A stretch of DNA of 64,000 bases from Clostridia bacterium. GTDB lineage: Bacteria; Bacillota; Clostridia; Christensenellales; Aristaeellaceae. Numbering within the stretch: the first letter of the stretch is position 1; each line of letters starts with the position of its first letter. The translations under genes were made by a program, and so were the position numbers. Under the pieces are notes generated by a model, which worked only from the letters and a program-made list of their open reading frames with translations, did not search any database and was not told where the DNA came from. The stretch lies in assembly GCA_017464305.1 (NCBI GenBank), contig JAFUDS010000005.1:167383-231382 (forward strand), read 5' to 3'. This document shows positions 343 to 64,000 of this stretch, piece by piece.

Positions 343-571
343 TGTTTCGTCGTATGCGCGCGGGAGATTGCCCAGGGCTCCACCCGTTTTTCACTGAAAA
401 CAGTCCACTGGACTGTTTTCCGGGCGTGAAAAACCCCTCCGGGGCACGCTCTCGCTCCGTTCCAGACGTAGCGGCACAAAGCGGCTGTCTTCGGGCGAGC
501 CCTCGCCACCCACTAAGTGCCGACGTCTTCCAAGGGCCCCTGAGTGAAACATCCCTTCGCACGACGAAACA
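343..571. repeat. Element R, copy R1 (structured intergenic repeat)
   Basis: First of six copies of an imperfectly palindromic element. The outer arms TGTTTCGTCGT (343-353) and ACGACGAAACA (561-571) are perfect complements. Inside are a CGCGGGAG/CATCCCTTCG pair and a central hairpin in which GGCAC pairs with GTGCC and AGACGT with ACGTCT. This copy also carries a separate perfect palindrome, GAAAACAGTCC (396-406) with GGACTGTTTTC (410-420), shared only with R4. The element lies between divergent rph and ruvC and ends 36 bp before the ruvC start. Reading frames through it are not thought to be coding, because other copies do not preserve them. Confidence 0.85.
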
Positions 572-606
572 GCGCCGTAATATTGCATAGAAACGAGGCA
601 AACAGA

Positions 607-1101
607 TTGATCGTTCTTGGCATTGACCCGGGATATGCCCTGATGGGATGGGGCGTGGTGGAAAGCGTCGGCAGCCGCATGCGGCTGATTAACTATGGCT
701 GCGTGGAGACGAAGGCTGGAGTGCCGATGCAAACCCGGCTACGGACGCTGCAGCTGGGGGTTCGGGATCTGCTGCAAATCTACAAACCGGACGACGTAGC
801 CTTTGAGGAGCTGTTTTTCGCCCGCAATGTGACCACCGCCCTCATGGTGGGCGCGGCCCGCGGCGCCGCCATCATCGCCGCAGCGGAGTATACGGAAAAC
901 CTGTACGAATATACCCCCATGCAGATCAAGCAGGCCGTTACCGGATACGGCAAGGCGGATAAGAAGCAGGTCCAGCAGATGGTAAAGCTGCTGCTGAAAA
1001 TGGATACCATCCCCAAGCCGGATGACGCGGCGGACGCCATCGCCTGCGCCATCACCCATTGCCAAACCGGCCCCGCCAAATCCCAGTTCATGATGAAATA
1101 A
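607..1101 (+). CDS. ruvC: Crossover junction endodeoxyribonuclease RuvC
   Basis: RuvC cuts Holliday junctions symmetrically during recombinational repair, working with the RuvAB branch-migration motor. The 164-residue product has the RNase H-like acidic set: D7 in GIDPG, E67 in FEELFF, and D140 and D143 in PKPDDAADA, plus the conserved KQAVTGYGKADK stretch. I chose the TTG at 607 because a GAGG site lies 8 bp upstream and because this places the first Asp at residue 7, as in the family. The in-frame ATG at 544 lies inside repeat R1 and would add 21 unconserved residues. ruvA and ruvB, often adjacent in Bacillota, do not follow; the TIR island does. No terminator with a T-run follows, so read-through into the TIR gene is possible. 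Confidence 0.95.
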   Translation: MIVLGIDPGYALMGWGVVESVGSRMRLINYGCVETKAGVPMQTRLRTLQLGVRDLLQIYKPDDVAFEELFFARNVTTALMVGAARGAAIIAAAEYTENLYEYTPMQIKQAVTGYGKADKKQVQQMVKLLLKMDTIPKPDDAADAIACAITHCQTGPAKSQFMMK

Positions 1102-1187
1102 TTCGATCTGCCGTCGTAGTCAATTGCCTCCCTGTCAGGTAGGCAAAAGTTCAATGGCGAACAGCGTCGCCAGGGAGGAGAATCTTC

Positions 1188-3632
1188 TTGAGCACATCGG
1201 AAAAAAAGCATGTTTTCATCAGCTATAAATCAGATGAGTTCGATACAGCCAATTGGGTTCGGTCTATTCTGGAAACAAATGGCATTTCATGCTGGATGGC
1301 TCCCAGGGATATCCCAGGCGGTTCCAGTTACGCCGCAGAAATACCCGCGGCGATCCGCTCCTGCCGTGTATTCGTTGTCATTCTCTCTCAAAAGGCCCAA
1401 GAATCCACTTGGGTACCCAAAGAACTGGATATCGCCATTAATCATCATAAGATCATCATGCCCTTTATGCTGGAGGATTTCCAACTACGGGATGATTTTA
1501 ATTTTTACCTGTCAAACGTACAGCGATACGCAGCTTACGAAAACAAGTCCCGCGCCATGGAGCGAATGATCCGAGAAATCCAGGCGATTCTCGAAGTGTA
1601 CCCGAACAGCCAACCCATCATCCGACAGGAAACATCAAAACAAAACAAGCCCCCGTCTGCCACTCAACAAAAAAGAATCAAACAATGGATCATCATTTCC
1701 GCTTGTCTTACGCTGCTCATCTGCGGCGGAATATTCGGGCGTTTCGTTCTTTCTCCCACAGGGGAGTCCAGGAGCCATTCGAGAGAAGGAACAGAGCCGG
1801 CACAGATGGCCGAAGAATCCCTTCCCGCAGACCTGATTGACCAACTGTATCACATCACGGTCATCGCGCCTGAACGTATGACCGTGAAAAATTTCAACAC
1901 CGCCAAAAAAATACTGAACGGTAGAATCGAATTGTTCTCCGACGGAAAATCCTATCAGTTAGAAGAGCAGGAGGATCGATTAGATTTGTTTCTTCCAGTG
2001 GATTCCTTTGCCATGGAAACCATCGAGACCGCCCTTCGATGCTACATCACCAGAGCGATTAATTTATACATGATAGACAACGCCCTCGACTCCAGGGTAA
2101 TTCCGATTTCCCGGAATGATCTGGCCAGTGTGGCCCTGCACACAGGCACGATTCCTGGAGTAGATGCCGCATCATACGGAGTAACTGATCCAGAATACCA
2201 GTACATTACGATGGAACTAACAGATGATTTTGTTTCAGAAAACAAAGAAACCTATGAAGGATGGGAAGAACTGACCTTTGCGCAGGATGTAGTTGAGTTT
2301 CCAGACAGCTATGCTCGATACTACACTTTCCCTTCTGGAGACAGCAAAACATTCTATGTGCTGAACAATGATCTGGGCGGAAAATATAGCGAATTGGTTG
2401 TCTATAACCTGACGCACGAGAGTCTTTCTGAAAGCTTCCGGTTTATGGTCGACGCAAACTACCAAGTCACCTGGGAAACAGCTACAGAGCACAAATCCGA
2501 CTGGGGAACCCTGCAGCGCGAGTATCAGGAGTTTACAGAAGGAACTATTACATTCACTCTTTCCTCGGGGAACATATCCATGGGCGAACTGATTGACGAG
2601 TGCACCGCTTTAAAACTACGGCTGGATGTGTTAGGAAATCCATACGCATTTGGACTCAGCAGCTACGGGGATGGCTACCTCATCGCGATAAAAACCAAAC
2701 CAGACCGAATTAATCAGCATATCATCGACCTGATGCGGAAGAGCATCTACCCCAAAGTCCGTTCCTTAACCTATGAAGATCTCGGTCTGAGCGCAAGGAG
2801 CGTGATTCTGAAAGAAAAGGAATCAGGCAAGTATTCGCTGCAACTGGAAGGTCATGGAGCGGATTCTTCTAACAGAGCAAAGCTGCAAGCCACGCTGGCT
2901 CTGAGCCAACAGGTAAACGAAGAAGTGTATTTCTATATCAATGATCTGCCACTTTTCCCGATGAAAGATGTCCTCTATCATGATGACACCGCTGTCATCG
3001 ATGTCGCGAATTATTGCTTTATACGGGATGGCAAGATCACGCTGGAACCAATCACCGCAGAAAATCAATGGTATGTGAATTACATCAAAACACTGCTCGA
3101 AACAGAATCCTCCATGAAAGCCACTCTTTCCTATGACGCAATGCAAATGAACCCCGACAGTCAAGGTATTTTGCCAACTGAGGAAGAACTGTCGCCATCC
3201 CTGTACTCCAATGCGTCCCAATTGGAAAACATCGTCCGTCAAAGTTGGTCCCAGGCCAGCACATCCTATGATTCAGGTTTCCTCTCCGTTTTTCTCCATC
3301 TTTCTCTGGATGATCGTTTTATCAGCCGATCTGTCCATCTAACTGAAGAAATCTTCCATGCGCTGAAAGGAAAAGATCTTTACCTTACAGAAATCGGCTT
3401 CTATCTCATTGATGAAGAGGGCGAAGAGAGAGCCCGCATCTTCCTCCAAAGGTCATATCTTGAACCCCAAGCCACCGGTGAAGTTTTACCCGAGTCTGAT
3501 ACTGACAACTTCCATTATTACGGCATTATGAAAAATGGCATGATTGACGATTATCGCCAGCCGATGCTTGATGCATTAGAGGCGTCAGAATTCTATCAAA
3601 CCCATCGAACGGACTATTCCGTGATCTACTAA
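1188..3632 (+). CDS. Membrane TIR-domain protein with a large extracytoplasmic region
   Basis: The 814-residue product begins with a TIR domain of the bacterial TIR_2 type (about residues 7-130), recognised from HVFISYKSDEFD, CWMAPRDIPGG, VFVVILS and TWVPKELDIA. E79 in PKEL is at the position of the NADase catalytic glutamate of active TIR domains. One transmembrane helix (about 167-187) follows, leaving about 625 residues outside the cell. That region contains two stretches (about 215-300 and 440-530) that weakly resemble the SecD P1 head fold; this is inference. Bacterial TIR domains hydrolyse NAD+ or make cyclic ADP-ribose isomers, but whether this one is active is not known. The TTG start at 1188 follows a GGGAGGAG site. 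Base composition is clearly more A+T-rich than ruvC or ftsH. The RyR-domain gene follows 117 bp later on the same strand, suggesting a joint function. Confidence 0.85.
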   Translation: MSTSEKKHVFISYKSDEFDTANWVRSILETNGISCWMAPRDIPGGSSYAAEIPAAIRSCRVFVVILSQKAQESTWVPKELDIAINHHKIIMPFMLEDFQLRDDFNFYLSNVQRYAAYENKSRAMERMIREIQAILEVYPNSQPIIRQETSKQNKPPSATQQKRIKQWIIISACLTLLICGGIFGRFVLSPTGESRSHSREGTEPAQMAEESLPADLIDQLYHITVIAPERMTVKNFNTAKKILNGRIELFSDGKSYQLEEQEDRLDLFLPVDSFAMETIETALRCYITRAINLYMIDNALDSRVIPISRNDLASVALHTGTIPGVDAASYGVTDPEYQYITMELTDDFVSENKETYEGWEELTFAQDVVEFPDSYARYYTFPSGDSKTFYVLNNDLGGKYSELVVYNLTHESLSESFRFMVDANYQVTWETATEHKSDWGTLQREYQEFTEGTITFTLSSGNISMGELIDECTALKLRLDVLGNPYAFGLSSYGDGYLIAIKTKPDRINQHIIDLMRKSIYPKVRSLTYEDLGLSARSVILKEKESGKYSLQLEGHGADSSNRAKLQATLALSQQVNEEVYFYINDLPLFPMKDVLYHDDTAVIDVANYCFIRDGKITLEPITAENQWYVNYIKTLLETESSMKATLSYDAMQMNPDSQGILPTEEELSPSLYSNASQLENIVRQSWSQASTSYDSGFLSVFLHLSLDDRFISRSVHLTEEIFHALKGKDLYLTEIGFYLIDEEGEERARIFLQRSYLEPQATGEVLPESDTDNFHYYGIMKNGMIDDYRQPMLDALEASEFYQTHRTDYSVIY

Positions 3633-3749
3633 CCTCTTCGATGCTGCGGCCGTCAGCCATGAACGAGTCTCAACCGTTTTGGATTTTACTAAAATCATGA
3701 CCCTGCTCTGTCCAACCCTGGTACAGAGCCCGCTGAAAGGAGCCTTATT

Positions 3750-5174
3750 GTGAGCATAAAAGGAAAACAGCTATTCCGCGGATTCCTATTTTCCCTTCCT
3801 CTGATCATCGGGACCATCGGGTTGAAAATCAGCGGTGAATCCCTTTTGAACTCAATGTTTGATACCGTGACCATGTACGCGCTTAACTATGGAACGGAGC
3901 CAGTCAACCAGCTGGTGGAAATTGCGCGGTGGACAGCCCCACTCGCCACAGCGACGGGAATTATTCTGATGATTCAGCCAGTTCTCCGGGCGCTGCACGC
4001 AAAATTACTGTCTCTGCGCAAAGAGTCTATCGCTGTATATGGAGACCCTGCGCTCTTCCATCGTCTCCAGGCAAAGTATCCCGTCATTCAAGGGGATCAG
4101 GAATTGTTATCTGCCCATACTTATCTTCTTTTTGGAGAGGAGCAGGAAAATCTGGATTTTTATCAGGAGCATCTTGCAGCCCTATGTAATCATGAAGTTT
4201 ATCTTCGTTGCGCTTCCCTTCCTTCTCAAATGATACAAAATCCCCGCTTACATCTGTACAACCCTGAAGAAACAGCTGCCCGACTCTATTGGAAACAGCG
4301 GAATTTAATTTCCCTTTTCCAATCTCATCATTTCACACTTAATATTGTTATCATTGGCTTTGGACGCATCGGAGAAGAACTCCTTTTCTGGGGACTTCAA
4401 AACAACATCTTTTCACCAGATCAATCCATTGCCTATCATGTTTTCGGGGAAGAAAACGGATATCGGCTGCTGCATCCCGGTTTGAACAAGATCAGCGACG
4501 CCATACAGTTTTACTCCCCGGCCTGGTGGGAGCAACTGTCCTTGCTTCAGCAGGCCGATCGAATTATCATCTGCCAACAGGAAAACCAGATACAGACCGT
4601 TCAGAAGCTGTTATCCGCCCTACCCGGTAAGGATCTGGACATCTGGGCCTCACATGTAAAAACTTTCACGCTCTGTGAGGAACAGAAACGGCTCAAATTA
4701 TTCGACTGGAAAGAAGAAGCGCTACGCCCCGAATACATTTTTGACGCCACCACCTTATGCCGAGCCAAAGCAATCAGTTTACGATACGCACAGCTCTACA
4801 GTCAGAATTCGACCTCTACGCTGGATATAGAAACCGAATGGATGAAGCTCAGTTCCTTTGCGCGCTATTCCAACATCAGCAGCGCGGATTATCACGAGAT
4901 TCGCCTCCGCATGATGCAATCCGCAGGTCTTTCCACAGATGGCAGCAACTTGACAAATGATCAGCTCGAACAGCTCAGTGAACTAGAGCACATCCGATGG
5001 TGCCGTTTTCATTTCCTGAACAACTGGAAATACGGAAAGCCCTTGAAAGGCGCGACAAAAGATTCTCTTCTTCGAATTCATCAAGATCTTCTTCCCTACG
5101 CTGAACTAAGCGATGCCGAAAAAGAGAAGGATCGTGAAGCCATCCGTGTGCTTCTGAGTGTGCGAGAATACTAA
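3750..5174 (+). CDS. Two-helix membrane protein with TrkA_N-like nucleotide-binding and RyR domains
   Basis: The 474-residue product has two predicted transmembrane helices (about 9-28 and 62-84). A cytoplasmic Rossmann-like TrkA_N region follows, marked by IVIIGFGRIGEE at about 199-210. The C-terminal RyR (ryanodine receptor) domain at about 408-470 is marked by LEHIRWCRF, NNWKYG and LSDAEKEKDREAI. RyR domains in bacteria occur alongside TrkA_N, TIR and other nucleotide-signalling modules and have been proposed, from comparative genomics, to act in conflict and nucleotide-sensing systems; no ligand is proven. The GTG start at 3750 follows AAAGGAG. A GCTCTGT/ACAGAGC hairpin (3705-3729) lies just before the ribosome binding site. 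Its likely role, an effector or sensor for a nucleotide made by the upstream TIR protein, is inference. The gene ends 9 bp from the convergent transglutaminase gene. Confidence 0.8.
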   Translation: MSIKGKQLFRGFLFSLPLIIGTIGLKISGESLLNSMFDTVTMYALNYGTEPVNQLVEIARWTAPLATATGIILMIQPVLRALHAKLLSLRKESIAVYGDPALFHRLQAKYPVIQGDQELLSAHTYLLFGEEQENLDFYQEHLAALCNHEVYLRCASLPSQMIQNPRLHLYNPEETAARLYWKQRNLISLFQSHHFTLNIVIIGFGRIGEELLFWGLQNNIFSPDQSIAYHVFGEENGYRLLHPGLNKISDAIQFYSPAWWEQLSLLQQADRIIICQQENQIQTVQKLLSALPGKDLDIWASHVKTFTLCEEQKRLKLFDWKEEALRPEYIFDATTLCRAKAISLRYAQLYSQNSTSTLDIETEWMKLSSFARYSNISSADYHEIRLRMMQSAGLSTDGSNLTNDQLEQLSELEHIRWCRFHFLNNWKYGKPLKGATKDSLLRIHQDLLPYAELSDAEKEKDREAIRVLLSVREY

Positions 5175-5183
5175 GGAACCGCG

Positions 5184-6827: not shown

Positions 6828-6838
6828 CTATTCCCCCT

Positions 6839-7051: not shown

Positions 7052-7136
7052 TTGCGTCCTCCCCATATTCTACGGTACGAAAGCGGAAATTTGATCATCC
7101 TCATGAAACGCGACATAGACTCGCTCTTGCTTTCAA

Positions 7137-9211: not shown

Positions 9212-9574
9212 TCACTTCAGCTTCTTTTCGCAGGCCTTCAGCGCCGCGAAGGTCTCGTCGCTGATGACATGCTCAATGCGGCAGGCATCCTCCGTGGCGT
9301 TCTCCTCGGAAACCCCCAGCTTCTTGAACAGACTGCTCAGCACCTGATGGCGCTCATAGATCTTTTCCGCGATGGCCTGCCCCTTCTCGGTGAAGGCCAG
9401 GTTTCCATCCTCCTCCACGATGATGCAGTCATCCTCCCGCAGCTTGGCCATGCCCCGGCTGACCGAGGGGCGGGAAAGCTCCATCTCCTCCGCCACATCG
9501 ATGGCCCGCACGGTGTGCTTTTTCTTCTTCAGGACCAGAATGGTCTCCAGGTACATCTCGCCGGATTCGCGCAT
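9212..9574 (-). CDS. DtxR/MntR-family metal-dependent transcriptional regulator
   Basis: The 120-residue protein has the winged helix-turn-helix of this family (about 1-60, including VRAIDVAEEMELSRPSVSRGMAKL). The helical metal-binding and dimerisation region follows, with ERHQVLSSLFKKLGVSEENATEDACRIEH. The E-x2-C and H ligands in that last stretch are typical of iron- or manganese-sensing members. It lacks the SH3-like C-terminal domain, as MntR does. Such proteins repress metal uptake genes when the metal is bound. No metal transporter gene is visible nearby. ATG at 9574 has GGAG 10 bp upstream; its own promoter is at 9626-9654. Confidence 0.85.
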   Translation of the reverse strand: MRESGEMYLETILVLKKKKHTVRAIDVAEEMELSRPSVSRGMAKLREDDCIIVEEDGNLAFTEKGQAIAEKIYERHQVLSSLFKKLGVSEENATEDACRIEHVISDETFAALKACEKKLK

Positions 9575-9654: not shown

Positions 9655-9665
9655 CGTATTTTTTC

Positions 9666-9835
9666 TGTTCAGTCGTGCGAAGGGATGTTTCACTCAGGGG
9701 CCCTTGGAGGACGTCGGTACTTAGCGGGTGGCAAGGGTGCTTGCGCCCGAAGGCAGCCGCTTTGTACCGCTACGTCCGGAACGGAGGCGCGAGCCGTGCC
9801 CCGGAGGGTAACTCCCGCGCGCATACGACTGGACA
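9666..9835. repeat. Element R, copy R2
   Basis: Opposite orientation to R1. The outer arms TGTTCAGTCGT (9666-9676) and ACGACTGGACA (9825-9835) pair along all 11 positions with one G-T wobble, although their sequence differs from the R1 arms. The central stem has GGTAC/GTACC and GGACGT/ACGTCC, where R1 and R5 have GGCAC/GTGCC and AGACGT/ACGTCT. The tip is GGGTGC/GCGCCC. This is the shortest complete copy and has no inserted palindrome. It separates the 3' end of glpK from the regulator promoter. Confidence 0.87.
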
Positions 9836-9843
9836 GCTATCTC

Positions 9844-11334
9844 CTAATGTTCAATCCACCCCATTGCCCGATCTACTGCCTTATGCCATCCCCGCAGGTT
9901 CAGCAGGCGGGTCGCTTCATCCATTCGGGGCGCAAACTCCAAATCCTTCTGCCACAGGCTGGCCAGCTCCTCCGTGCCGCTATACAGCCCGCAGCCCAGC
10001 CCCGCCAGCAGCGCTGCTCCCAGGGCGGTGGTTTCCAGCACCTGTGGCCGGACCACCGGCACGTGGCTGATGTCCGCCTGGAACTGCATCAGGAAGGCAT
10101 TGGCGCTGGCGCCGCCGTCCACCTGCAGTCGCTCCGGCTTCCGACCGGAATCCTTGATCATGGCCTGCATCAGATCCTCGCTCTGGTAGGCAATAGCCTC
10201 CAGCGCCGCCCGCACGATATGGGCCCGGCCCGTGCCCCGGGTCATGCCCACCAGGGTCCCCCGGGAATACATGTCCCACCAGGGAGCCCCCAGCCCCGTC
10301 ATGGCGGGCACCAGATAAACCCCGCCGGTACTCTGGACGCTCTCCGCCAGGCCCTCGCTCTCGGAGGCCCGGGTGATCATCTTCATCTCATCCCGCAGCC
10401 ACTGGATGGTGGCGCCCCCCATAAACACGCTGCCCTCCAGGGCATAGGTGGGCTTGCCGCCGATGCGCCAGGCCATGGTGGTCAAAAGGCCGTTCTGGCT
10501 CTGCACCGGCTGATCCCCGGTGTTCATCAGCATGAAGCATCCCGTGCCATAGGTGTTCTTCACATCCCCCACCTGCCAGCAGGCCTGGCCGAAGAGGCTG
10601 GCGTGCTGATCACCGGCCATGCCGGTGACCGGGATGGGGCGGCCCAAAATCGCCGGATCCAGCGTGCCGATGAACCCGGAAGAATCCACCACCTGGGGCA
10701 GGCAGGCCCGGGGAATCCCCAGCAGCTTCAGCAGCTCCTCGTCCCAGTCCTGGGTTTTCAGGTTAAACAGCATGGTCCGTCCGGCGTTGGTGGCATCCGT
10801 CACATGGGGCCGGCCCGTCAGCAGATTCCAGCACAGAAAGCTGTCCACCGTACCGAAGCAAAGCTCCCCTTTCTCCGCCCGGTCGTGCAGCTGATAATAG
10901 TCCAGCATCCATTTCAGCTTCGTGCCAGAAAAATACGCATCCGGAATCAGGCCCGTTTTTTCCCGAATCATGTCCCCCTGCCCCGCGGCCACCAGATCCT
11001 CCACGATCTGCGCGGTACGCCGGCATTGCCAGACGATGGCGTTGCCCACGCACTTCCCCGTCTGCCGATCCCACAGGAAGGTGGTTTCCCGCTGGTTGGT
11101 AATGCCGATGGCGGCGATGTCTCCCACGTCCACCCCACTGAGATGCACCGCTTCCTTCAGCGCGGTGATCTGGGTGTCCAGGATATCCTCCGGGTCATGC
11201 TCCACCCAGCCGGGGTGGGGGTAGTGCTGCGGAAATTCCACCGCGTGGGAGGCCACGATGACCCCCTCCGCACTGAAGACGATGGCCCGGGAACTGGTGG
11301 TTCCCTGGTCCAGCGCAACCAAATACTTCGCCAT
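9844..11334 (-). CDS. glpK: Glycerol kinase
   Basis: GlpK phosphorylates glycerol to sn-glycerol 3-phosphate with ATP. The 496-residue product opens with MAKYLVALDQGTTSSRAIVF, the FGGY kinase phosphate-1 motif. It also contains the conserved FPQHYPHPGWVEHDPEDI, NQRETTFLWDRQTG, TYGTGCFMLMNTG and TRGTGRAHIVRAALEAIAYQ segments. The ATG at 11334 follows GGAGG; longer in-frame starts run into repeat R3. No glpF or glpD gene is adjacent. The gene is flanked on both sides by R elements (R2 after, R3 before), so its promoter must lie in or beyond R3. Confidence 0.97.
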   Translation of the reverse strand: MAKYLVALDQGTTSSRAIVFSAEGVIVASHAVEFPQHYPHPGWVEHDPEDILDTQITALKEAVHLSGVDVGDIAAIGITNQRETTFLWDRQTGKCVGNAIVWQCRRTAQIVEDLVAAGQGDMIREKTGLIPDAYFSGTKLKWMLDYYQLHDRAEKGELCFGTVDSFLCWNLLTGRPHVTDATNAGRTMLFNLKTQDWDEELLKLLGIPRACLPQVVDSSGFIGTLDPAILGRPIPVTGMAGDQHASLFGQACWQVGDVKNTYGTGCFMLMNTGDQPVQSQNGLLTTMAWRIGGKPTYALEGSVFMGGATIQWLRDEMKMITRASESEGLAESVQSTGGVYLVPAMTGLGAPWWDMYSRGTLVGMTRGTGRAHIVRAALEAIAYQSEDLMQAMIKDSGRKPERLQVDGGASANAFLMQFQADISHVPVVRPQVLETTALGAALLAGLGCGLYSGTEELASLWQKDLEFAPRMDEATRLLNLRGWHKAVDRAMGWIEH

Positions 11335-11370
11335 GTTGTTTCCTCCGATCTGCAAAATAAGCAAACTCCG

Positions 11371-11559
11371 CGTGCGCGCGGGAGTTCCCCTCCGGGGCAC
11401 GCTCTCTTACCGCAACCTCAATGGTCGCGACTCCCCACAGGGGAGCTCGCTTCCTTTCGGTTGACCTCACCTCTGGCGAAATTTCCGCCACTGGCGGTCG
11501 CCAGAGGTTCGCCCGTTCCAGACGTCCAAGGGCCCCTGAGTGAAACATCCCTTCGCACG
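11371..11559. repeat. Element R, copy R3, carrying a nested element S
   Basis: The ends match the other R copies: GCGTGCG pairs with CGCACGC, with the shared CGGGAGTTCCCC and CCCTGAGTGAAACATCCC segments. The central R hairpin is missing: the sequence jumps between the two GACGT motifs that flank it in other copies. In its left arm is an insertion (11407-11512) that aligns, reversed, with element S found at 40332-40541. The copy lies between glpK and the propeller-protein gene. Confidence 0.8.
11407..11512 (-). repeat. Element S, third copy, nested in R3
   Basis: Hairpin A has arms CCTCTGGCGA (11470-11479) and TCGCCAGAGG (11498-11507), with inner CCGCC-ACT-GGCGG. Hairpin B has GCGACTCCCC (11427-11436) with GGGGAG (11440-11445) and the offset CGC after it. 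In the reverse orientation these align with the two hairpins of the tandem S pair at 40332-40541, but with different bases in the outer stems and preserved pairing. Confidence 0.75.
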
Positions 11560-18312: not shown

Positions 18313-19542
18313 TTAGAACAGGCGTACCGTCTGCCCTTCCGCCAGCACCCCCTGCTGAATCGCGGAGATATAAACCTCCCCTTCCCGCCGGTCCAGAATG
18401 TTCACCGGGATGAAGGTCTGATATTGTCCGTCCACCACCACGACGCCTGCCATGTTATCCTGATAATAAATCGCCCGGGCGGGCACCTTTAGGGTGGATA
18501 CATTGTCCCCCAGCTCGCCGGTGCAGGTACGGATATACAGGATGGGGTTCACCTTGGCCTGCACCGCCAGGCGCACCACCATCTCCCCGCCGCTGCGGGT
18601 AAAGGAAACGACCCGAGCCTTCACCGTCGTATCCTGGAAGCTTTCCAGCTTCAGCTCGTATTCCGCGCCCTCTACCGGGTTCCAATTGCTGTCCCGAACC
18701 ATCATCAGCACGTACCAGTAATCATCCCGGATCATGCGATAAATGGTGGTCTTCCCCTTCTGCAGGGCGCTCTGCTCCGGCTTGTTGCCGTTGAGCATGG
18801 ATCGCACCTGGGCGGGGGTAAACTGGTCATAATTGTTCACCGTCAAGCCATATTCATATCCGTCGGAATAGAAGCTGACGATCCCTTCTGTCAAGGCTGC
18901 ATATTGCTTCGTCCAGGAGCTGATGCGCTGCATCTGGCTCTGCTCATCGTCGTAGAGCCGGGTCATGCGCTGATCCTCGCTGTACTTTTGCTTCAGGTAG
19001 CTCTGGCGGGCCTGAATAGCCGTTTCCAGCAGGCTCTCCTGGTTGTTCATATTTCCCCGGGCGCCACCCACGATGGCCCGCACCTCTCGAGCCCGGGTCA
19101 TAACCTCGCTTTCCAGCTTCTCCATCCGGGCGTCCGTCGCCACCTCGGAACGCAGCAGCTTCAGCTGATATTCCTTAATCTGGTCCCGATAATCCTGCAG
19201 GGTGGTCATCTCCCGGGTGCTGAATCCAGAGGAATAAACATTGCAGATGGTTGTCCCCCGGAACACGGCGGCCCCTTCCTCCGCGATGTATTCAATGCTG
19301 GTCAGGCCCTCCGCGTCGTAGGGCGTTTCATCCCGAACCAGCAGGCAATCCCCCGCGTATCGGGCCCCCAGCGTCCCGGAGCTGATCTGCCCATAGGGCT
19401 CCGCCTCCGGGGTCAGGGCTGTCACCAGATACCACACCACAAAACCCAGCACCACCACGATCAGCGCGATCTGCGCCACGCTCATGCGCTTGGGCTCCTC
19501 CGGCTGCGGCGCTACGGGCTGCACCGGCTGCGGCGGCGTCAT
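18313..19542 (-). CDS. HlyD-like membrane fusion/adaptor protein
   Basis: The 409-residue protein has a Pro/Gln-rich cytoplasmic N-terminus, one transmembrane helix (about 24-43), and a split barrel-type region (about 55-100). A helical hairpin (about 105-215) follows, then a C-terminal beta region including VPARAIYYQDNMAGVVVVDG. This is the layout of HlyD-type adaptors of export systems. In Clostridia a similar gene often sits just before sepF in the division cluster, as here, so a wall or division role rather than toxin export is plausible. No ABC exporter gene is adjacent. ATG at 19542 is preferred to the TTG at 19551 because GGGAGG lies 11 bp upstream of it. Confidence 0.72.
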   Translation of the reverse strand: MTPPQPVQPVAPQPEEPKRMSVAQIALIVVVLGFVVWYLVTALTPEAEPYGQISSGTLGARYAGDCLLVRDETPYDAEGLTSIEYIAEEGAAVFRGTTICNVYSSGFSTREMTTLQDYRDQIKEYQLKLLRSEVATDARMEKLESEVMTRAREVRAIVGGARGNMNNQESLLETAIQARQSYLKQKYSEDQRMTRLYDDEQSQMQRISSWTKQYAALTEGIVSFYSDGYEYGLTVNNYDQFTPAQVRSMLNGNKPEQSALQKGKTTIYRMIRDDYWYVLMMVRDSNWNPVEGAEYELKLESFQDTTVKARVVSFTRSGGEMVVRLAVQAKVNPILYIRTCTGELGDNVSTLKVPARAIYYQDNMAGVVVVDGQYQTFIPVNILDRREGEVYISAIQQGVLAEGQTVRLF

Positions 19543-19626
19543 CTGATACAAGGCCTCCCTCTCCTTCCCCGGAAATAATCACCCTTTATCTTATCACATC
19601 CCGCAGGGGTTTGCAAATTTCGCAAT

Positions 19627-19858
19627 TTGCGAGTGAACGAAGGGATGTTCCCCGTAGGGTGCCTTGGAGAACGTCGGTACTTAGGCGGTGGCGAGCGCGA
19701 ACGCGCGAAGGCAGCGCCTTTGTACCGCTACGTTCGGAACGGGGGTTCGAAACGCCCGGAAAACTGTCCAGTGGACAGTTTTCAGTGGGAGAACGGGCGG
19801 CAGCCCCGGGCCGGAGAGCCGTTACCCCAAGGGGAACTCCCGCGCGTTCACGGCGCAA
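19627..19858. repeat. Element R, copy R4
   Basis: Same orientation as R2. The outer arms are TTGCG-A-GTGAACG (19627-19639) and CGTTCAC-GG-CGCAA (19845-19858), again different from the other copies but complementary. The central stem has GAACGT/ACGTTC, GGTAC/GTACC and GGCG/CGCC, with tip GCGCG/CGCGC. The copy contains the second example of the inserted palindrome, GAAAACTGTCC (19759-19769) with GGACAGTTTTC (19773-19783). Compared with R1 one pair is flipped from A-T to T-A. It fills most of the 320-bp gap between the HlyD-like gene and purR; nothing else is seen in that gap. Confidence 0.87.
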
Positions 19859-19862
19859 CGCA

Positions 19863-20681
19863 TCACCCGTTCAACCAGGACGCCGGCCGAACGATGGCTT
19901 CGGGGGCCTCGCCGGAAAGCACCTCCAGGGTCATGAGGCTCCTTTCCCCTACCACCCGCTTCTTCTCCGGGTTCACCGTGGCCATCACAAATCCCATGCC
20001 AACCACCGCCACATTGAATTCCCGCATCAGCTCCACCATGCCCCGGGCCGTGCCGCCCCCCTTCAGGAAGTCATCCACAATCAGGGCGCGCTGGTTCTCT
20101 TTCACCGCCCGGCGGCTCAGGCTCATGGTCTCGATGTTTCCGGAGCCGGAAACATAGTTGATGTTCACCGCCGACCCCTCATACACCTTGGAGGAGTGCC
20201 GGGCGATGACCAGGGGCACCCCCAGGGCGTTGGCCGTGGCGAAGGCCACGGGAATCCCCTTGGTCTCCATGGTCAGCACAAAATCCGCCCGCTTGTTTTC
20301 AAACTCCGTGGCCAGAATCTCCCCCATGCGGTTCACGATCTCCGGCGTGGAAAGGATATCCGAATAATAAAGGAAATCCCCCGGCAGCACCCGCTCCGTA
20401 CCGCTGAGCTGGCGGCCCAGATCAGCAATGAAGGTTCGGGCGGATTCCCGGCTATGCTGCGGGCGATAGAGCACGCCCCCCGCCGCGCCAGTAATGGTTT
20501 CAATCTCCCCCAGGTCAAATTCCTTCGCCACCCGACGCAGAGCGTCGATATCCTCGCTGATCGTGGATTTCGCCGCGCCAAAAAGCTCGCAGAATTGGTT
20601 CAGGGTAAACATCTTCCCCGGCGCGCCGGAAAGAATCTTCATCATCACGCTCATCCGCTCGTTGCGGCGAATCTTCTCCAT
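19863..20681 (-). CDS. purR: Purine operon repressor PurR (Bacillota type)
   Basis: The 272-residue protein has an N-terminal winged helix (about 1-72, MEKIRRNERMSVMMKILS, FCELFGAAKSTISEDI) fused to a phosphoribosyltransferase-fold domain. The PRPP loop reads RALIVDDFLKGGGTARG. Bacillota PurR represses purine synthesis genes and is released by PRPP. The fold is not catalytic in this family. The ATG at 20681 follows GGAGG; the longer reading frame would cross a terminator. No PurBox could be assigned by eye. The gene follows the HPr-like gene on the same strand, separated by the terminator at 20723-20752. Confidence 0.95.
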   Translation of the reverse strand: MEKIRRNERMSVMMKILSGAPGKMFTLNQFCELFGAAKSTISEDIDALRRVAKEFDLGEIETITGAAGGVLYRPQHSRESARTFIADLGRQLSGTERVLPGDFLYYSDILSTPEIVNRMGEILATEFENKRADFVLTMETKGIPVAFATANALGVPLVIARHSSKVYEGSAVNINYVSGSGNIETMSLSRRAVKENQRALIVDDFLKGGGTARGMVELMREFNVAVVGMGFVMATVNPEKKRVVGERSLMTLEVLSGEAPEAIVRPASWLNG

Positions 20682-20722
20682 GGGTGGCTCCTCCTTCCTG
20701 CCCCGCCGGCTTTCCAGGCAGC

Positions 20723-20752
20723 AAAAAAACCTCCGGCTTTGACAGTCGGAGG
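20723..20752 (-). terminator. Terminator or attenuator between the HPr-like gene and purR
   Basis: On the minus strand CCTCCG (20752-20747) pairs with CGGAGG (20735-20730) and is followed by a run of seven T (20729-20723). It lies between the HPr-like stop and the purR start. No second promoter for purR was recognised, so partial read-through could set purR level. Confidence 0.8.
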
Positions 20753-20859
20753 CTATTTTACCACAATTTACGAATATTGCAAGCAATTATCCCGGGAAAG
20801 TTCGTCTTTTTGCCGTTCCTTCTCCACTTCATCCGCCGCAATGTGCGGAAATGGGATGC

Positions 20860-54112: not shown

Positions 54113-54162
54113 CTGCGCGCGAGAGGTTCTCTCCGATCATCCCTGAGCGAAACATCCCTACA
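54113..54162. repeat. Element R, remnant R6
   Basis: The sequence TCTGCGCGCGAGAGGTTCTC and, after a few bases, CCCTGAGCGAAACATCCCTA are the two ends of an R element with the whole core lost. The orientation is that of R1, R3 and R5. It lies between rfbD and the aspartate kinase gene. Confidence 0.6.
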
Positions 54163-59300: not shown

Positions 59301-59911
59301 TGGCTGATGCAGTCAAAGGAGCGCAGGGAGTCCACCTCGTCGTCGAAAAACTCAATGCGGATGCCCTCCTTGCCAGCGGGGGGATACAGATCCAGAATGG
59401 CCCCCCGCAGGGCAAACTGGCCCTTGCCCTCCACCATGTTCACCCGCTCGTATCCCATCCGCGTCAGGCGGGACACCAGGCTGCTGAGGCTCATCCGATC
59501 CCCGGGGCGCAGGGTGAAACAGGCCTGCCGGAAGGGCTCCGGCCGGCCCATGCGCTGCATCAGCGCCTCGCCGCTGGTGACCAGCAAACGGGCCCCCTGG
59601 GTCATGGCGGAGAGGGCCTCCAGCCGCCGCCAGCTGCTTTCCAAGCTGCCAGCGGCCCGGGTCAGGTCGATTTCACCCCCGGGTAGGCAGGGGCAGTCCA
59701 GCCCCGTCCACTGGCGGGCATCATCCGCCAGACGGCTGGCCTTCAGGTCGTGCTCCGCCACCAACAAAACTTTTTTCCCTTCCGCGGCCAGCCGGGCGGC
59801 CACTGCCGCCGCCAGAGCCTGCGTAACGCCGGAAAGGGCCAGGGGCTGACCGGCGGAAGCGCCGCCGATTTTCTCCCACGCCGGGATCGGAATTAAATCT
59901 AATAATTTCAA
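56303..59911 (-). CDS. mfd: Transcription-repair coupling factor
   Basis: Mfd pushes RNA polymerase off lesions and recruits UvrA. The 1202-residue protein has the UvrB-like N-terminal region, the RNA polymerase-interacting domain (KVGDFVVHEDHGVGIY, quoted start of the block), and helicase motifs LLCGDVGYGKTEVSLRAAF, LIVDEEQRFGV, TLSATPIPRTL and QLRGRVGRS, then the C-terminal TRCF domain. Its length is normal. The start is a TTG at 59911 with only a weak GGGA site. It lies 43 bp after pth and is coupled to the comF-like gene. Confidence 0.97.
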   Translation of the reverse strand: MKLLDLIPIPAWEKIGGASAGQPLALSGVTQALAAAVAARLAAEGKKVLLVAEHDLKASRLADDARQWTGLDCPCLPGGEIDLTRAAGSLESSWRRLEALSAMTQGARLLVTSGEALMQRMGRPEPFRQACFTLRPGDRMSLSSLVSRLTRMGYERVNMVEGKGQFALRGAILDLYPPAGKEGIRIEFFDDEVDSLRSFDCISQRSQDRLEEARITPACEALLTPEEGPAAAERMRNALREAGAAPKETPRLLADLPPLPEDDEDEEYFDAQIAPKAREAAYQSRESDEMERRRARLRADADLVESGVPFRRMRSWISVLTEDTADLLDWMQPDVVLLWEPDRIRSRTEERLAGFGEDLQSAIARGEAVQPQEDLLQDWETLRRKMETLPMLVLTEMLQGLGGVRPVDSVDLGAGGLVGYQGQIRLLKNDLAALREKGYRMLLLSGGEARGRRLAENLAELEEKATFLENPEAPLPKEGAVILPLTLSRGFLMPGGNLALVSDADIWGEGYRKSKSKKRTGERISTFTELKVGDFVVHEDHGVGIYKGITRLQSEGTWRDYLLIQYNGNDKLYVPVEQLERVQRYIGNPSQPPKLNSLGGGEWAKQKGKVKEGLKHLAFDLKKLYAERSQRTGYAFSKATPWQREFEDEFPWELTPDQRESVREIEADMESDRSMDRLLCGDVGYGKTEVSLRAAFKAIVDGKQVALLAPTTILVQQHYNTILKRFRNTGARVDFLSRFRTAKEQKQVLADLAEGKIDILVGTHRLLAKDVKFKDLGLLIVDEEQRFGVAHKEAIKNLKRQVDVLTLSATPIPRTLHMSMTGIRDMSVLETPPEERMPVQTMVMEYSDAVIRDAILRELGRGGQVYFLYNRVRSIESFYARLRALVPEARIGVAHGQMKEHALEDVMMDFYAGSYDVLLCTTIIESGLDVPSANTLIVYDAERFGLSQLYQLRGRVGRSNRQAYAYFTVRMDKILSETAQQRLEAIREFTEFGAGFRIAMRDLEIRGAGNILGPEQHGHLATVGYDMYCKLIEETLAEVNEGAPRRDLETRVDLRVDAFLPGDYIADEKQRMEIYKRIASILTDQDRAEVTDELIDRYGDVPAVVETLLDVSQLRAMSNRLGVSQVSRGKGGAVFRLDEKYIPDPAKLMQAMVRVSPDLNFARDSRPAMVYRTQLSSDRELMKALLKLVRRLTAEIEKEPAA

Positions 59912-59954
59912 TGTATTTTTCCCTACAATTACGCGTATTGATCTTTATACCAGC

Positions 59955-60530
59955 TTACTTCTGATTGCCCAGCTGCATGGCATGGTCAATGCCATGGGCC
60001 ACCCAATCGATGGCGGCCTCCGCCGCCTTCTGGAAGGCGGCTTCCATCACGGGGCGATCCTCCACCCCCGGCCGACCCAGCACCCAGTCCGCCAGGTCCT
60101 GCCCGGCGGGGCGATCCCCCACGCCAACGCGGATTCGCGGAAAATCCTGGCCCCCCAGATGCTCCACGATGCTGCGCATGCCATTATGGGTACCCGGGCC
60201 ACCGCCCCGCCGCACCCGAACCCGCCCCGGGGGCAGGTCGATATCGTCATAGATCACCAGCAGGTGATCCGACGTGCAGTGATACCAGCGCATCAGCTTC
60301 GCCACGCACTCTCCGCTGGCGTTCATGAAGGTCTGGGGGGTACAAAGGACCACCTTCCGATCCTCCTGGGTGATTTCAGTCAAAAGGCCCTGGAGCATCT
60401 TGCGCCCCAGGGTGACCTGATAATGCTTTTCCAGCAGGGCCATGGTGTCGAACCCTGCGTTGTGGCGGGTGTGGGCATATTCCTCTCCAGGGTTGCCCAA
60501 CCCTACTATGAGGTATACTTCTTTGCTCAT
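59955..60530 (-). CDS. pth: Peptidyl-tRNA hydrolase
   Basis: Pth releases peptides from peptidyl-tRNA dropped by ribosomes. The 191-residue protein has LIVGLGNPGEEYAHTRHNAGF (conserved Asn and His, block split by position 5-25), TPQTFMNASGE, DDIDLPPGRVRVRRGGGPGTHNGMRS region and FPRIRVGVGDRP. ATG at 60530 has only a weak purine tract upstream. The first codons and the leader are part of a tandem duplication (60522-60656), so a second ATGAGCAAAG occurs upstream. Confidence 0.95.
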   Translation of the reverse strand: MSKEVYLIVGLGNPGEEYAHTRHNAGFDTMALLEKHYQVTLGRKMLQGLLTEITQEDRKVVLCTPQTFMNASGECVAKLMRWYHCTSDHLLVIYDDIDLPPGRVRVRRGGGPGTHNGMRSIVEHLGGQDFPRIRVGVGDRPAGQDLADWVLGRPGVEDRPVMEAAFQKAAEAAIDWVAHGIDHAMQLGNQK

Positions 60531-60656
60531 TTTTCTACTTTGCTTTTTTAGTCTCCCCCATTCGGGGGGAGACAATTTGGGTCATTTTTCTTTGCTCATT
60601 TTTACTTTGCTTTTTTAGTCTCCCCCTTCTGTGAGAGACAAATTTGATCATTTTTC
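60522..60656. repeat. Tandem duplication covering the start and leader of pth
   Basis: Unit 1 (60522-60590) and unit 2 (60591-60656) both read TTTGCTCATTTTT, then ACTTTGCTTTTTTAGTCTCC, then a GTCTC palindrome, CAAATTT-like sequence and a TCATTTTTC end. Unit 1 contains the pth start codon and unit 2 a silent copy of it. The palindrome is perfect in unit 1 (60551-60573) and decayed in unit 2. Confidence 0.75.
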
Positions 60657-60659
60657 CCT

Positions 60660-60714
60660 GTCCCCCTCCGGGGGACGCTTTAATGAGATTTTCAACTCCC
60701 CCTCCGGGGGAGTT
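60660..60714. repeat. Two GC-rich palindromes downstream of the Lgt-like gene
   Basis: GTCCCCCTCCGGGGGAC (60660-60676) and AACTCCCCCTCCGGGGGA followed by GTT (60694-60714) are perfect inverted repeats. The second lies 14 bp beyond the Lgt-like stop and may work as its terminator, though no T-run follows. Confidence 0.6.
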
Positions 60715-60728
60715 GACTCATTAGGGTT

Positions 60729-61697
60729 TTAGTTCTTCATCGCCAGGTTCCAGGAGGTAACGCCCATGCCTATGCAGCAAATTGTTTCCAGCAGGTAGGC
60801 CATCCCTACGCTGAGGGTGGGGCTCTTGTCCACGGCAAATTCCAAAATCACAATGATGGGCACCATCAGGAGGAAGATCACCCCGTTCCCGATCAGCTTT
60901 TTCTGGGACATGCGCTGCCCCTCCGGCCGTTTCATCCACCGCAGGATCCCGAAAACCACCAGCCCCAGCAGCACCACTGCCGCCGTCACCTGGCTGACCC
61001 GCACGAACAGCCACCGCAGGAAATTATCCCGCCGCAGGGCCTCCAGGATGATCTGGGAGCTGCTATACAGCACCAGGAACATCCGAGCCCGATACCCCTG
61101 CGCCAGCCTGCGTCCATAAGTAATCAACAGGACGAAGATAATCAGCCCCACCAGGCCCTCCAGCATGAACAGGGCGTAATTCCATTCCTCCCATTCATTG
61201 ACCACCGAAAGGGGGAAGAACTGCAGAGCTTCCACGTCCACCTCCGGGCCAATGCCCTCCCCAATGGAGAATTCTCCAAAGCGGGAAATGGCAATCCCCA
61301 GGGCTCCCGCTGGGGCCAGGGCGTCCAGCAGATCAGCCGCCTTCACCCGGGTCAGCTTTCCTGCCAGCAGCGCCCCCAGAGCTACGCCGCCCACCGCGCC
61401 CCAGAAGGCCGCCCCGGTGGCCGCGCCCCAGATTCGCAGCTCCTCATCCTCAATGTAAAAGAAGTTTTGCAGCCCAATATCCAAGAACAGCTCCCACCGG
61501 GCCGCCACATAGAACAGCCGCGCCCCCAGGAGCCCCAGTACAGCGCTCAGCACCACCGTGGCCAGACGGGCGCTGGTTTTCAGCTTTCTCCCCTGCCACA
61601 GGAAGACACCCAGGGCCACCAGGCAGGCGACCCATACGGCCACCGCGTAGGGCGTCATGGGCCGCCCCAGGATATTCCACATCACCGTTTCTTCCAA
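60729..61697 (-). CDS. Lgt-like membrane protein with altered signature residues
   Basis: The 322-residue protein has seven or more hydrophobic helices and resembles prolipoprotein diacylglyceryl transferase. The Lgt signature (R-x-G-N-F-x-N-x-E-x2-G) reads SRFGEFSIGEGIG at 138-150: the Arg, Gly, Phe and last Glu are kept, but both Asn positions are changed, to Glu and Ile. The C-terminal Arg-Glu pair appears as SQIILEALRR, with Gln for Arg. Loss of the invariant Asn makes ordinary Lgt activity doubtful; a second, normal lgt may exist elsewhere. The TTG at 61697 is preferred because GGAG lies 10 bp upstream. The phosphodiester glycosidase gene is 39 bp upstream. Confidence 0.65.
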   Translation of the reverse strand: MEETVMWNILGRPMTPYAVAVWVACLVALGVFLWQGRKLKTSARLATVVLSAVLGLLGARLFYVAARWELFLDIGLQNFFYIEDEELRIWGAATGAAFWGAVGGVALGALLAGKLTRVKAADLLDALAPAGALGIAISRFGEFSIGEGIGPEVDVEALQFFPLSVVNEWEEWNYALFMLEGLVGLIIFVLLITYGRRLAQGYRARMFLVLYSSSQIILEALRRDNFLRWLFVRVSQVTAAVVLLGLVVFGILRWMKRPEGQRMSQKKLIGNGVIFLLMVPIIVILEFAVDKSPTLSVGMAYLLETICCIGMGVTSWNLAMKN

Positions 61698-61736
61698 AGC
61701 TTTGTTACTCCTTTCCCGCGCCCACAGGGGCCACCA

Positions 61737-62762
61737 TCAATCCGGCAGCCAGGCGTCGGCGAAATAGATCAGATCCCGCAGCTGCCGCTTCTTGCCGCTC
61801 TTGGGGCAATTCACCTTGGCCCAGGTTTCCGTTCCTTTCCGGAACACCAGAGTAGAGGAGGCGCCGCCGTCCAGATTATAGGCAGTTTCAATATCCGGGA
61901 AGGAGGCCAGCAGCTCCACGAACTGGTCCAGCTTCAGCCCGGTGCTGCCCGGATCCTCCGGCCCCTCGCTGGTGATCAGCAGATACTCCAGGGGCCCGGT
62001 TTGGCAGATGGCCATCCGCTGCGCCGGGCGGTTGGAGGACATCTGGCGGCTGTCATAGCCATAGCGAGGTTCCCCCTCCACCACCAGGGCAGGGCCAAAG
62101 GCGAAGACATTCACGGCGCTGTCGCCCATGTCCAGGATCTTGCTATAAATCTCTCCCCAGCTTTCCGCCTCCAGCACCACCAGATTCCCCTGATCGTCAA
62201 TCACCAGGGTATCCCGGCCCTGCTCTTCCTTCCAGTTGTTCAGCTTGGCCTCGCTGGTCTTGGCGCTGGGCCGCTTCCAGGCCCCGTGATGCAGGACGGG
62301 GCCATCCACAAAGGCGACGCCGCCGCTGGAAACATCCGCCTCCAGCACCCCATTCACCGCCACTACCGCCTTGACCCGGCCCGCCAGCTTGCTGCCCAAA
62401 ACCTTGGTGGTCTTCGCCAGGGAGTCCTCGGTGGTAACCGTACGAATCTGCGCGGGAGAGGCGATCTTCACCCGGGCGTACATATAATTGGTCTTATAGA
62501 TGCGCCCCGTTCCCAAATTCACGGTGATGGAGGGATCCGCGTATCCATAGGGGCTCTTTTCCCCCGGCTGGAAGAGGTAATGCCCTTCGTGAGGCCCGAT
62601 GAAGGGATCCGACTGGGCCGTCAGGTCGGCAAACTGCCCCCCCTCCGCTGCCGGCAGCTCCAGGGCCATCACCTGATCATCATAGTCCTCTCCCAGGGCT
62701 GGGGCCGCCAAGAAGCACAGGGACACCAGCCAAAGCAGCGATTTCCGAATCCAGTTTCTCAT
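61737..62762 (-). CDS. Secreted phosphodiester glycosidase-domain (NAGPA-like) protein
   Basis: The 341-residue protein has a signal peptide (about 1-25, LLWLVSLCFLAAPALGED) and the NAGPA/DUF2233 domain, with VVAVNGVL, GPALVVEGEPRYGYDSRQMSS and the hallmark AYNLDGGASSTLVF. The domain removes sugar 1-phosphodiester caps; in Bacillota it is often linked to wall polymers. It should act outside the membrane. ATG at 62762 follows GGAGG. It lies between asnA and the Lgt-like gene on the same strand. Confidence 0.85.
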   Translation of the reverse strand: MRNWIRKSLLWLVSLCFLAAPALGEDYDDQVMALELPAAEGGQFADLTAQSDPFIGPHEGHYLFQPGEKSPYGYADPSITVNLGTGRIYKTNYMYARVKIASPAQIRTVTTEDSLAKTTKVLGSKLAGRVKAVVAVNGVLEADVSSGGVAFVDGPVLHHGAWKRPSAKTSEAKLNNWKEEQGRDTLVIDDQGNLVVLEAESWGEIYSKILDMGDSAVNVFAFGPALVVEGEPRYGYDSRQMSSNRPAQRMAICQTGPLEYLLITSEGPEDPGSTGLKLDQFVELLASFPDIETAYNLDGGASSTLVFRKGTETWAKVNCPKSGKKRQLRDLIYFADAWLPD

Positions 62763-62818
62763 TTTTCCTCCCGACCTGTGTAGGTTCATCATGCGCACGC
62801 GGTAATTCCCCGCCAGGA

Positions 62819-63823
62819 TCACAGCAGCAGAATGTTCGCCCGATGGCAGGCTTCCACCACTTCCTCCGGCCAGATGCTGGCCTGCACCTCGCCCACATGG
62901 GCCTTCCGCAGGAAATAAACGCACATCCGGCTCTGGCCAATGCCACCGCCGATGGTCTGGGGCAGCTCGCCGTTCAGCAGCGCCTTCTGGAAGGGCAGCT
63001 CCGCCCGCTCTTCACAGCCCCGAATTTTCAGCTGGCGCCGCAGGGCCTCCGGGTCCACCCGGATGCCCATGCTAGACACCTCCAGGCTCATATCCAGCAG
63101 GGGATCATACAGCAGGATATCCCCGTTCAGGTTCCAGTCGTCATAGTCCGGCGCCCGGCCATCATGAATCTCGCCGCTTTTCAGCGCGCCGCCCACCTGC
63201 ATCAGGAACACAGCCCCATACTCCTTCGCCGCCAGATATTCCCGCTGACGAGGGGTCTTCTCCGGATACCGATCCTCCAGCTCCTGGGTGGTCACAAAGG
63301 TGATCTCATCCGGCAGCTCCGGCTTGATATGGGGATAATGGGCGCAGACGTATCCTTCCGTCTTCCGCAGGGTCAGATAAATCTTGCGGACGATCTTCCG
63401 CAGGAATTCCTCGTTTCGCTCCTCCGGCGCCATAATCCGCTCCCAGTCCCACTGGTCCACAAAGATGGAGTGGATATTGTCCGTCTCCTCGTCCCGGCGG
63501 ATGGCGTTCATGTCGGTATAGAGCCCTTCCCCCGGCTGGAAGCCATAGGTTTTCAGGGCCTGGCGCTTCCATTTGGCCAGGGAATGAACGATCTCCACCG
63601 TGCGGCCCGTCTCCAGCACATCGAAGGCCACTGGCCGCTCCACGCCGTTCAGGTTATCGTTGAGGCCGCTTTCCGGAGCCACCATGATGGGGGCGGACAC
63701 CCGGGTCAGGTTCAGCGCCCGGCTCAGCTCCGCCTCGAAGAAGTCCTTCACCAGCTTGATGGCGATCTCCGTGTCCCGCAGGTCCAGGACCGGATTATAA
63801 TCCTTAGGAATAATCAGATTCAT
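62819..63823 (-). CDS. asnA: Aspartate-ammonia ligase (asparagine synthetase A)
   Basis: AsnA makes asparagine from aspartate, ammonia and ATP. The 334-residue protein has the class II synthetase-like fold with RVSAPIMVAPESGLNDNLNG, VHSLAKWKR, GEGLYTDMNAIRRDE and the C-terminal GGGIGQSRMCVYFL. Its length is that of the family. ATG at 63823 follows GGAGG. Element R5 begins 30 bp upstream, so the promoter is in or beyond it. No T-box was recognised in the visible leader. Confidence 0.97.
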   Translation of the reverse strand: MNLIIPKDYNPVLDLRDTEIAIKLVKDFFEAELSRALNLTRVSAPIMVAPESGLNDNLNGVERPVAFDVLETGRTVEIVHSLAKWKRQALKTYGFQPGEGLYTDMNAIRRDEETDNIHSIFVDQWDWERIMAPEERNEEFLRKIVRKIYLTLRKTEGYVCAHYPHIKPELPDEITFVTTQELEDRYPEKTPRQREYLAAKEYGAVFLMQVGGALKSGEIHDGRAPDYDDWNLNGDILLYDPLLDMSLEVSSMGIRVDPEALRRQLKIRGCEERAELPFQKALLNGELPQTIGGGIGQSRMCVYFLRKAHVGEVQASIWPEEVVEACHRANILLL

Positions 63824-63853
63824 GCTCTTACCTCCATATTCTTAGCATATCAC

Positions 63854-64000
63854 ATGCGCGCGGGAGTTCCCCTCCGGGGCACGGCTCGCGCCTCCGTTCC
63901 AGACGTAGCGGCACAAAGCGGCTGCCTTCGCGCGTGCGCGCTCGCCACCCGCTAAGTGCCGACGTCTTCCAAGGGCCCCTGAGTGAAACATCCCTTCGCA
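63854..64000. repeat. Element R, copy R5 (reaches the right edge)
   Basis: Same orientation as R1 and R3. It has the shared CGGGAGTTCCCCTCCGGGGC and CCCCTGAGTGAAACATCCCT ends, and a central stem of AGACGT/ACGTCT, GGCAC/GTGCC and GCGG/CCGC with tip GCGCG/CGCGC. The final arm is cut by the window edge, so the outermost pairing cannot be checked. It lies upstream of asnA. Confidence 0.85.

Follow-up and report, generated by a model that had tools for sequence, protein, structure and literature searches.

The question raised by this locus is what kind of element recurs between its genes with hairpin arms that change together from copy to copy. The window, that is, the whole stretch of DNA analyzed here, comprises 64,000 nt of assembly GCA_017464305.1 (contig JAFUDS010000005.1, 167,383–231,382; all positions below follow window numbering). 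The first-pass annotation had claimed five copies, R1–R5, and a short remnant, R6, and these were confirmed at their positions upon rechecking of the arms; R1–R5 are copies of one dispersed intergenic element. Our preferred reading, to which we assign a probability of about 0.5, is that they belong to an undescribed, non-autonomous, chromosome-borne family of structured repeats (MITE-, ERIC-, or bcr1-like) that is scattered over the Bacillota and that we infer to be mobile. It builds on direct observations of the structure, the structured strand, the distribution and copy number, the arms, the tips of orthologues, scarred losses, and nested modules. Beyond what had been noted before, the element occurs in many Bacillota, folds into a three-way junction that includes a GNRA hairpin, and has copy-specific outer arms. 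The features of the window are as follows.

342..572, minus strand: R1, with outer arms CTGTTTCGTCG/CGACGAAACAG at 342–352 and 562–572 and hairpin A at 464–528
367–433: extra nested hairpin module D of R1, within the R1 base stem
544–1101, plus strand: ruvC, which follows R1; its actual start lies further in
9212–9574, minus strand: iron-dependent repressor gene, neighbor of R2
9665..9836, plus strand: R2, with outer arms CTGTTCAGTCG/CGACTGGACAG, hairpin A at 9709–9777, and the GNRA hairpin C within 9783–9798
9844–11400, minus strand: FGGY kinase gene, neighbor of R2
11371..11559, minus strand: R3, with the outer scaffold kept, without hairpin A, and with module B (nested hairpins) at 11410–11513
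18313–19551, minus strand: HlyD-like gene, neighbor of R4
19633..19851, plus strand: R4, of a variant subfamily, with outer arms GTGAACG/CGTTCAC and hairpin A at 19669–19735
19743–19811: nested module D of R4, at hairpin C
19863–20786, minus strand: purine-repressor-like gene, neighbor of R4
54113..54162, minus strand: R6, a remnant comprising the base hairpin only, read by eye
62819–63823, minus strand: AsnA gene, neighbor of R5
63854..64000, minus strand: R5, of the main subfamily, with hairpin A at 63901–63967; it stops at the contig end and was used as query

The arms quoted in the first-pass annotation are correct, namely GGACGT/ACGTCC and GGTAC/GTACC in R2, GAACGT/ACGTTC in R4, and AGACGT/ACGTCT with GGCAC/GTGCC in R1 and R5. 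R3 carries another hairpin module in place of the central hairpin and therefore adds nothing to that helix. A full copy is approximately 145 bp long, and the plus strand is the one that begins with TGCGAAGGGATG. The fold is a three-way junction composed of a long base stem, hairpin A, and the small hairpin C. Hairpin A commonly reads GGTTCTTAGCGATTGGCGAG-tip-CGAAGACAGAGCTTAGAACC and has conserved mismatches; its form in the window is AGACGTCGGCACTTAGCGG...CCGCTTTGTGCCGCTACGTCT. The loop of hairpin C, read by eye, matches GNRA in 79 of 84 rows, the exceptions being five loops that are empty, offset, or ACGA.

The earlier claim that changes on one hairpin arm are matched on the opposite arm at several helices was borne out far beyond chance. 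When 19 copies were aligned with MAFFT, using no structure, 93.4% of the cells paired, compared with 80.9% in shuffles, and 30 of 51 pairs changed on both sides, compared with 14.6 ± 2.1. Neither value was reached in any of 500 shuffles, and the signal was destroyed when partners were slid by 1 to 3 columns. For 58 copies from the genus, RNAalifold predicted 43 pairs, 39 of them with two-sided change. Two-sided change was seen for 48 of 51 pairs among 86 matches from many Bacillota (alignment A4), a set that still included odd rows (partial or opposite-strand).

A tree-aware test was performed in the manner of R-scape, not with R-scape itself, by re-dealing substitutions over a FastTree tree and using an APC-corrected G statistic. 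With 82 rows (A4 minus four partial or opposite-strand rows) in a structure-fitted alignment, which favors the structure, 27 of 50 structure pairs and no other pairs were significant at E < 0.05. Sequence-only MAFFT alignments gave three significant pairs for the 82 rows and four for 54 of the 58 genus rows of alignment A3 (four rows with inserted modules were dropped), all of them in hairpin A; in each of these alignments, one significant pair is a position at which standard pairs alternate with G.A and G.G, the standard pair being present in just 53% and 52% of the rows, respectively. Covariation thus persists in many more copies and supports the conserved structure proposed in the first-pass annotation, be it an RNA or a DNA hairpin.

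Covariance models and wider genome searches, as suggested earlier, yielded copies in the window's own genome, in its genus, and in the phylum. The window's genome (G000), from a gut bacterium, is a 2.53-Mb draft of 51 contigs that is 68.6% complete. BLASTN with R5 gave 49 matching pieces in this genome (40 of 51 candidates were scored), R6 not being among them, and covariance models, whose E-values as built here are rough, gave 32 element matches. Copies at separate loci of G000 are up to 97–100% identical. Six contigs of this genome (C1, C11, C25, C30, C31, and C33) start or stop inside element copies, which means that the assembly is probably interrupted by the repeats and that the number of copies is not certain.

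Within the window's genus, at least 28 of 45 genomes, including its own, carry the element (first covariance model, strict filters). In a sample of the phylum, at least 8 of 398 genomes do, again including its own (wider model, built on A4 with its partial or opposite-strand rows still included; strict filters, with at most eight candidates scored per genome). Both counts are lower bounds because of the filters, and the latter also because of the number of candidates scored. Wherever present, the element is multicopy, with 49 copies in G282, 32 in G000, 28 in G396, 24 in G044, 20 each in G046 and G280, 18 in G306, 14 each in G255 and G042, 13 in G202, 12 in G043, and 11 in G421. The distribution is patchy: G457, which shares its family with G282, has no copies.

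A pattern scan of named genomes gave at least 117 stretches. The matches listed comprise 80 loci, with record titles including Mogibacterium, Selenomonadaceae, Schwartzia, Lachnospiraceae, Peptococcaceae, Blautia, Eubacterium, Bacilliculturomica (B. massiliensis), and others. Inspection by eye, among the matches listed, shows the complete three-way plan preserved in several copies from Mogibacterium and Selenomonadaceae; in several records of Lachnospiraceae, Blautia, and Eubacterium, hairpin A is the one part that stands out, with tandem pairs in L191. A contig filed under Succinivibrionaceae (L224, JAFURY010000052.1) bears the window's own element subfamily and is probably misbinned. Carriage by plasmids or viruses was rejected: one Mogibacterium copy (L219) used as query found no match in plasmid records and one weak match in phage records, and the pattern found one stretch in viral contigs.

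Folding differs between the two strands. With RNA parameters, the fold of the plus strand is the better one in 139 of 144 copies (58/58, 40/43, and 41/43), and with DNA parameters in 132 of 144 (58/58, 40/43, and 34/43). G.T combinations occupy 127 cells and A.C combinations 78, in a tally that excluded four ill-defined pairs (including the one at which standard pairs alternate with G.A and G.G) and dropped two partial or opposite-strand rows; within hairpin A the order is reversed, with 25 A.C and 13 G.T. That the plus strand is the structured one, as RNA or as single-stranded DNA, is well supported.

The main rival to a mobile repeat family is a functional structured RNA, regulatory or protein-binding, made from many copies under host-operon or own promoters, with the copies spread incidentally. 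The GNRA loop, the conserved internal loops, and the fact that one strand folds better under RNA parameters would fit such an RNA, which could equally account for the conservation of hairpin A. DNA parameters, however, favor the same strand, and the gene context is not constant. Neighbor orientation bears on this rival in both directions. With a codon-trained gene caller, both neighbors were antisense in 57 and both sense in 17 of 109 entries from the window's genus (L131 repeats the two L075 copies, and some G000/G044 orthologues are counted twice), which argues weakly against it, as a simpler caller gave antisense-to-sense ratios of 17 to 19 in this genus and 17 to 28 elsewhere. Tandem neighbors in four high-copy genomes from other genera were sense in 16 and antisense in 10 cases, which favors the RNA rival. 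A general antisense orientation was dropped as an argument. On balance, we regard a functional RNA as an unlikely explanation, if a serious one.

The first-pass annotation had not recognized the element as a named family, and indeed Rfam 15 gave no match in the window at gathering score. An Rfam E-value search of seven loci gave eight matches; none of them reached the gathering score, and none covered the element. Being dispersed, multicopy, and intergenic with a common fold, the element falls within the ERIC-like or bcr-like kind of repeat. Structured intergenic repeats have mostly been reported species by species. REP and REPIN sequences are extragenic palindromic repeats associated with a RAYT (Y1) transposase; the present element also forms close inverted pairs, and its head-to-head pairs recall REP doublets, but it is much larger, and several copy-rich genomes lack the Y1 transposase. 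HEARO/OMEGA RNA, which goes with IscB, is likewise a dispersed structured intergenic element; in contrast, our element has no Rfam match, and the RRXRR domain of IscB (PF14239) gave no match above cut-off in 30 genomes, with one weak match in copy-less G129.

The bcr1–bcr18 sequences are described as intergenic repeats of a Firmicute group, the Bacillus cereus group; bcr1–bcr3 are MITE-like, bcr10 and bcr18 have a conserved secondary structure, and 51% and 40% of the copies lie within transcripts in two strains (PMC3446304). Compared by these descriptions, the element shares with them the nature of an intergenic repeat of Firmicutes; they are described there from the B. cereus group, whereas the core of our element recurs in many genera and comes with a three-way junction and copy-specific arms. 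The ERIC and YPAL palindromic repeats are dispersed, folding sequences of roughly 130–170 bp with known shortened copies (PMC2267715). By description, the likeness extends to size, dispersal, folding, and shortened copies, but E. coli, Y. pestis, and V. cholerae are the organisms named on their side, and the present element branches and has both conserved internal loops and a GNRA hairpin. By analogy, the ERIC, YPAL, and bcr families are the nearest kind. It seems improbable that the element is an RNA or repeat family known by a different name and missing from Rfam, as literature searches by core letters and by keywords, covering a partial library with supplements outside the search, found no prior description; the papers listed for the core letters were, judged by title, on unrelated topics.

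The outer arms are specific to individual copies. In 39 of 41 copies from four genomes, an alignment-free comparison of the outer 18-nt arms showed that the 5′ arm pairs best with the 3′ arm of its own copy. Between copies of G282, G306, G202, and G421, the outermost ten arm bases are 50–55% alike (47% for random sequences), and the cores are 68–79% alike on average; in copy pairs whose cores are at least 85% alike, the outer arms are 55–64% alike, compared with 47% for random 10-mers. L334 and L335, both in G282, share arms, which indicates that arms can travel with copies. The terminal arms are thus inverted but largely copy-specific; a classical MITE would be expected to have terminal inverted repeats shared by its copies and by a transposase gene. 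A terminator origin of the outer arms was considered and rejected; some copies are terminator-like and many are not, and no orthologous bare terminator was found.

Orthologues reveal where copies change. The sister genomes G000 and G044 are 93–95% identical over most shared loci. Orthologues L007 and L080 have seven differences, six of which lie within 20 tip bases, including one compensated pair. In L011/L090 (G000/G044) and L334/L401 (G282/G486), too, most differences fall in the tip. Tip rewriting is not seen in three of the six full-length pairs of orthologues, namely L015/L087 and L005/L088 (one base each) and L024/L096 (base stem); L029 is truncated. In sequence comparison, the clustering of tip changes between orthologues suggests that hairpins undergo template switching or conversion, at any rate in the pairs whose tips have changed. 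DNA-level rewriting of hairpins, not slow compensatory mutation, may be the source of part of the paired change.

Taken to its extreme, this idea would make the covariation a mere by-product of DNA palindrome correction, one arm being copied onto the other by template switching, with no selected structure. The scarcity of G.T intermediates (127 of 3416 standard-pair cells), the clustered tip changes with their compensated pair, and the copy-specific arms are all compatible with it. Under such correction, hairpin A should have lost its mismatches and loops; both are nevertheless found again from genus to genus, and the bias toward one strand is pronounced. We therefore consider it very unlikely as an account of the whole element; palindrome correction may explain the arms and tips, not the core. 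Covariation is often taken as proof of RNA function but can partly stem from palindrome rewriting in DNA, and the element could serve to tell these two sources apart.

Gain and loss were assessed by looking up G000 copies in G044. From 26 flanks sent, 20 matches and 18 comparisons were obtained, 14 with a junction, three as gapless alignments, and one without alignment. Seven of the 14 junctions, read by eye, keep a bare base hairpin or an element end in G044 (R1, R4, L004, L014, L019, L033, and L034, with L014 and L033 being weak), and the remaining junctions have an altered spacer. R6 resembles such scars at orthologous sites of the sister genome (compare L153). Between G486 and G282, the L330 site is a deletion between short direct repeats, and the L336 site is a replaced spacer. 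Losses that leave scars are thus documented. Gains are inferred from the near-identical copies at separate loci; neither a clean empty site nor an insertion with target duplication was found in the 18 comparisons with G044 or in 11 around G282.

Several candidate mobilizers were rejected. ORF comparison at 116 pattern-scan loci gave no recurrent close neighbor gene, which speaks against an associated gene in cis; the largest cluster comprises eight ORFs from seven loci, 59 to 4573 bases away from the element. A Y1 transposase (PF01797; IS200/IS605 or RAYT) does not track copy number, with no match in copy-bearing G044, G042, G043, G017, G014, G282, G306, G421, G255, G280, and G396, some of which are incomplete. 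IscB was rejected in the same way, showing no match with copy number. A bacterial SINE-like retroelement, RNA-templated and copied in trans by a reverse transcriptase, would suit the RNA-like fold, the near-identical dispersed copies, and the RVT_1 (PF00078) matches in ten copy-bearing genomes (in G044 only below cut-off), but is highly improbable, since reverse transcriptase does not track copy number, RVT_1 being found in copy-less G053, G129, G086, G438, and G419 and missing from 8 of the 18 genomes with copies that were searched (G049, G043, G042, G015, G017, G014, G396, and G002, some incomplete).

For the non-autonomous mobile repeat that we prefer, the lack of a constant neighbor gene, together with Y1, RVT, and IscB not tracking the element, favors a factor acting in trans. 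The folded single strand, hairpin A above all, would serve as the recognition structure of a putative enzyme that copies or moves the element in trans, and template switching or conversion would rewrite arms and tips in the DNA while preserving their pairing. Weighing against this reading are the scarred or altered orthologous sites, which show loss and not gain, the failure to find a clean insertion or, among Y1, RVT_1, and IscB, a mobilizing enzyme, the three orthologous pairs with unrewritten tips, and the excess of A.C over G.T within hairpin A. The shape of hairpin A is preserved with near-invariant mismatches, which makes a reader of this hairpin probable. As the core is kept in this way across widely separated Bacillota, something, whether a transposase, a recombinase, or an RNA-binding protein, probably reads the shape. 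A broader proposal, which we put forward only tentatively, is that these are phylum-wide mobile elements selected as a folded strand: a putative trans-acting enzyme would read the three-way junction, arms and tips would be rewritten copy by copy, modules would nest, and the element would evolve as a shape and not as a sequence.

Several copies contain additional hairpins. An extra module sits in the hairpin A tip of L022, L025, L026, and L028, and module B replaces hairpin A or C in R3, L018, L021, and L033–L036. The exact module B core was found in 17 of 410 loci and the module D pattern in 5 of 410. Module B (CCGCCAGTGGCGG core) occurs at varying positions in or beside elements of several species (window 11410–11513, L018, L021, L033–L036, L069, L128, L132, L138, L176, and L192) and may be a second structured repeat family. 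Module D (window 367–433 and 19743–19811; L202 and L211) combines an AGT loop with a similar flank; from one species to another its arms change but remain complementary (GGAAAACTGTCC/GGACAGTTTTC versus GAGAAAGAGCC/GGCTCTTTCTC), which is the same arm rewriting as in the element. A short second hairpin with arms variable between copies follows hairpin A in G255, G396, G280, and one Peptococcaceae record (L366, L363, L369, and L169); in L366, the unit is repeated.

Inverted element pairs less than 200 bp apart were head to head in eight of eight cases among the A2, A4, and A5 matches (L075, L240, L330, L333, L335, L339, L341, and L343), a pattern noticed post hoc, for which a two-sided binomial calculation by hand, assuming independence of the copies, gives 0.008. 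Four of these pairs are in G282 and two in G306. One close pair, at L067, is in direct order.
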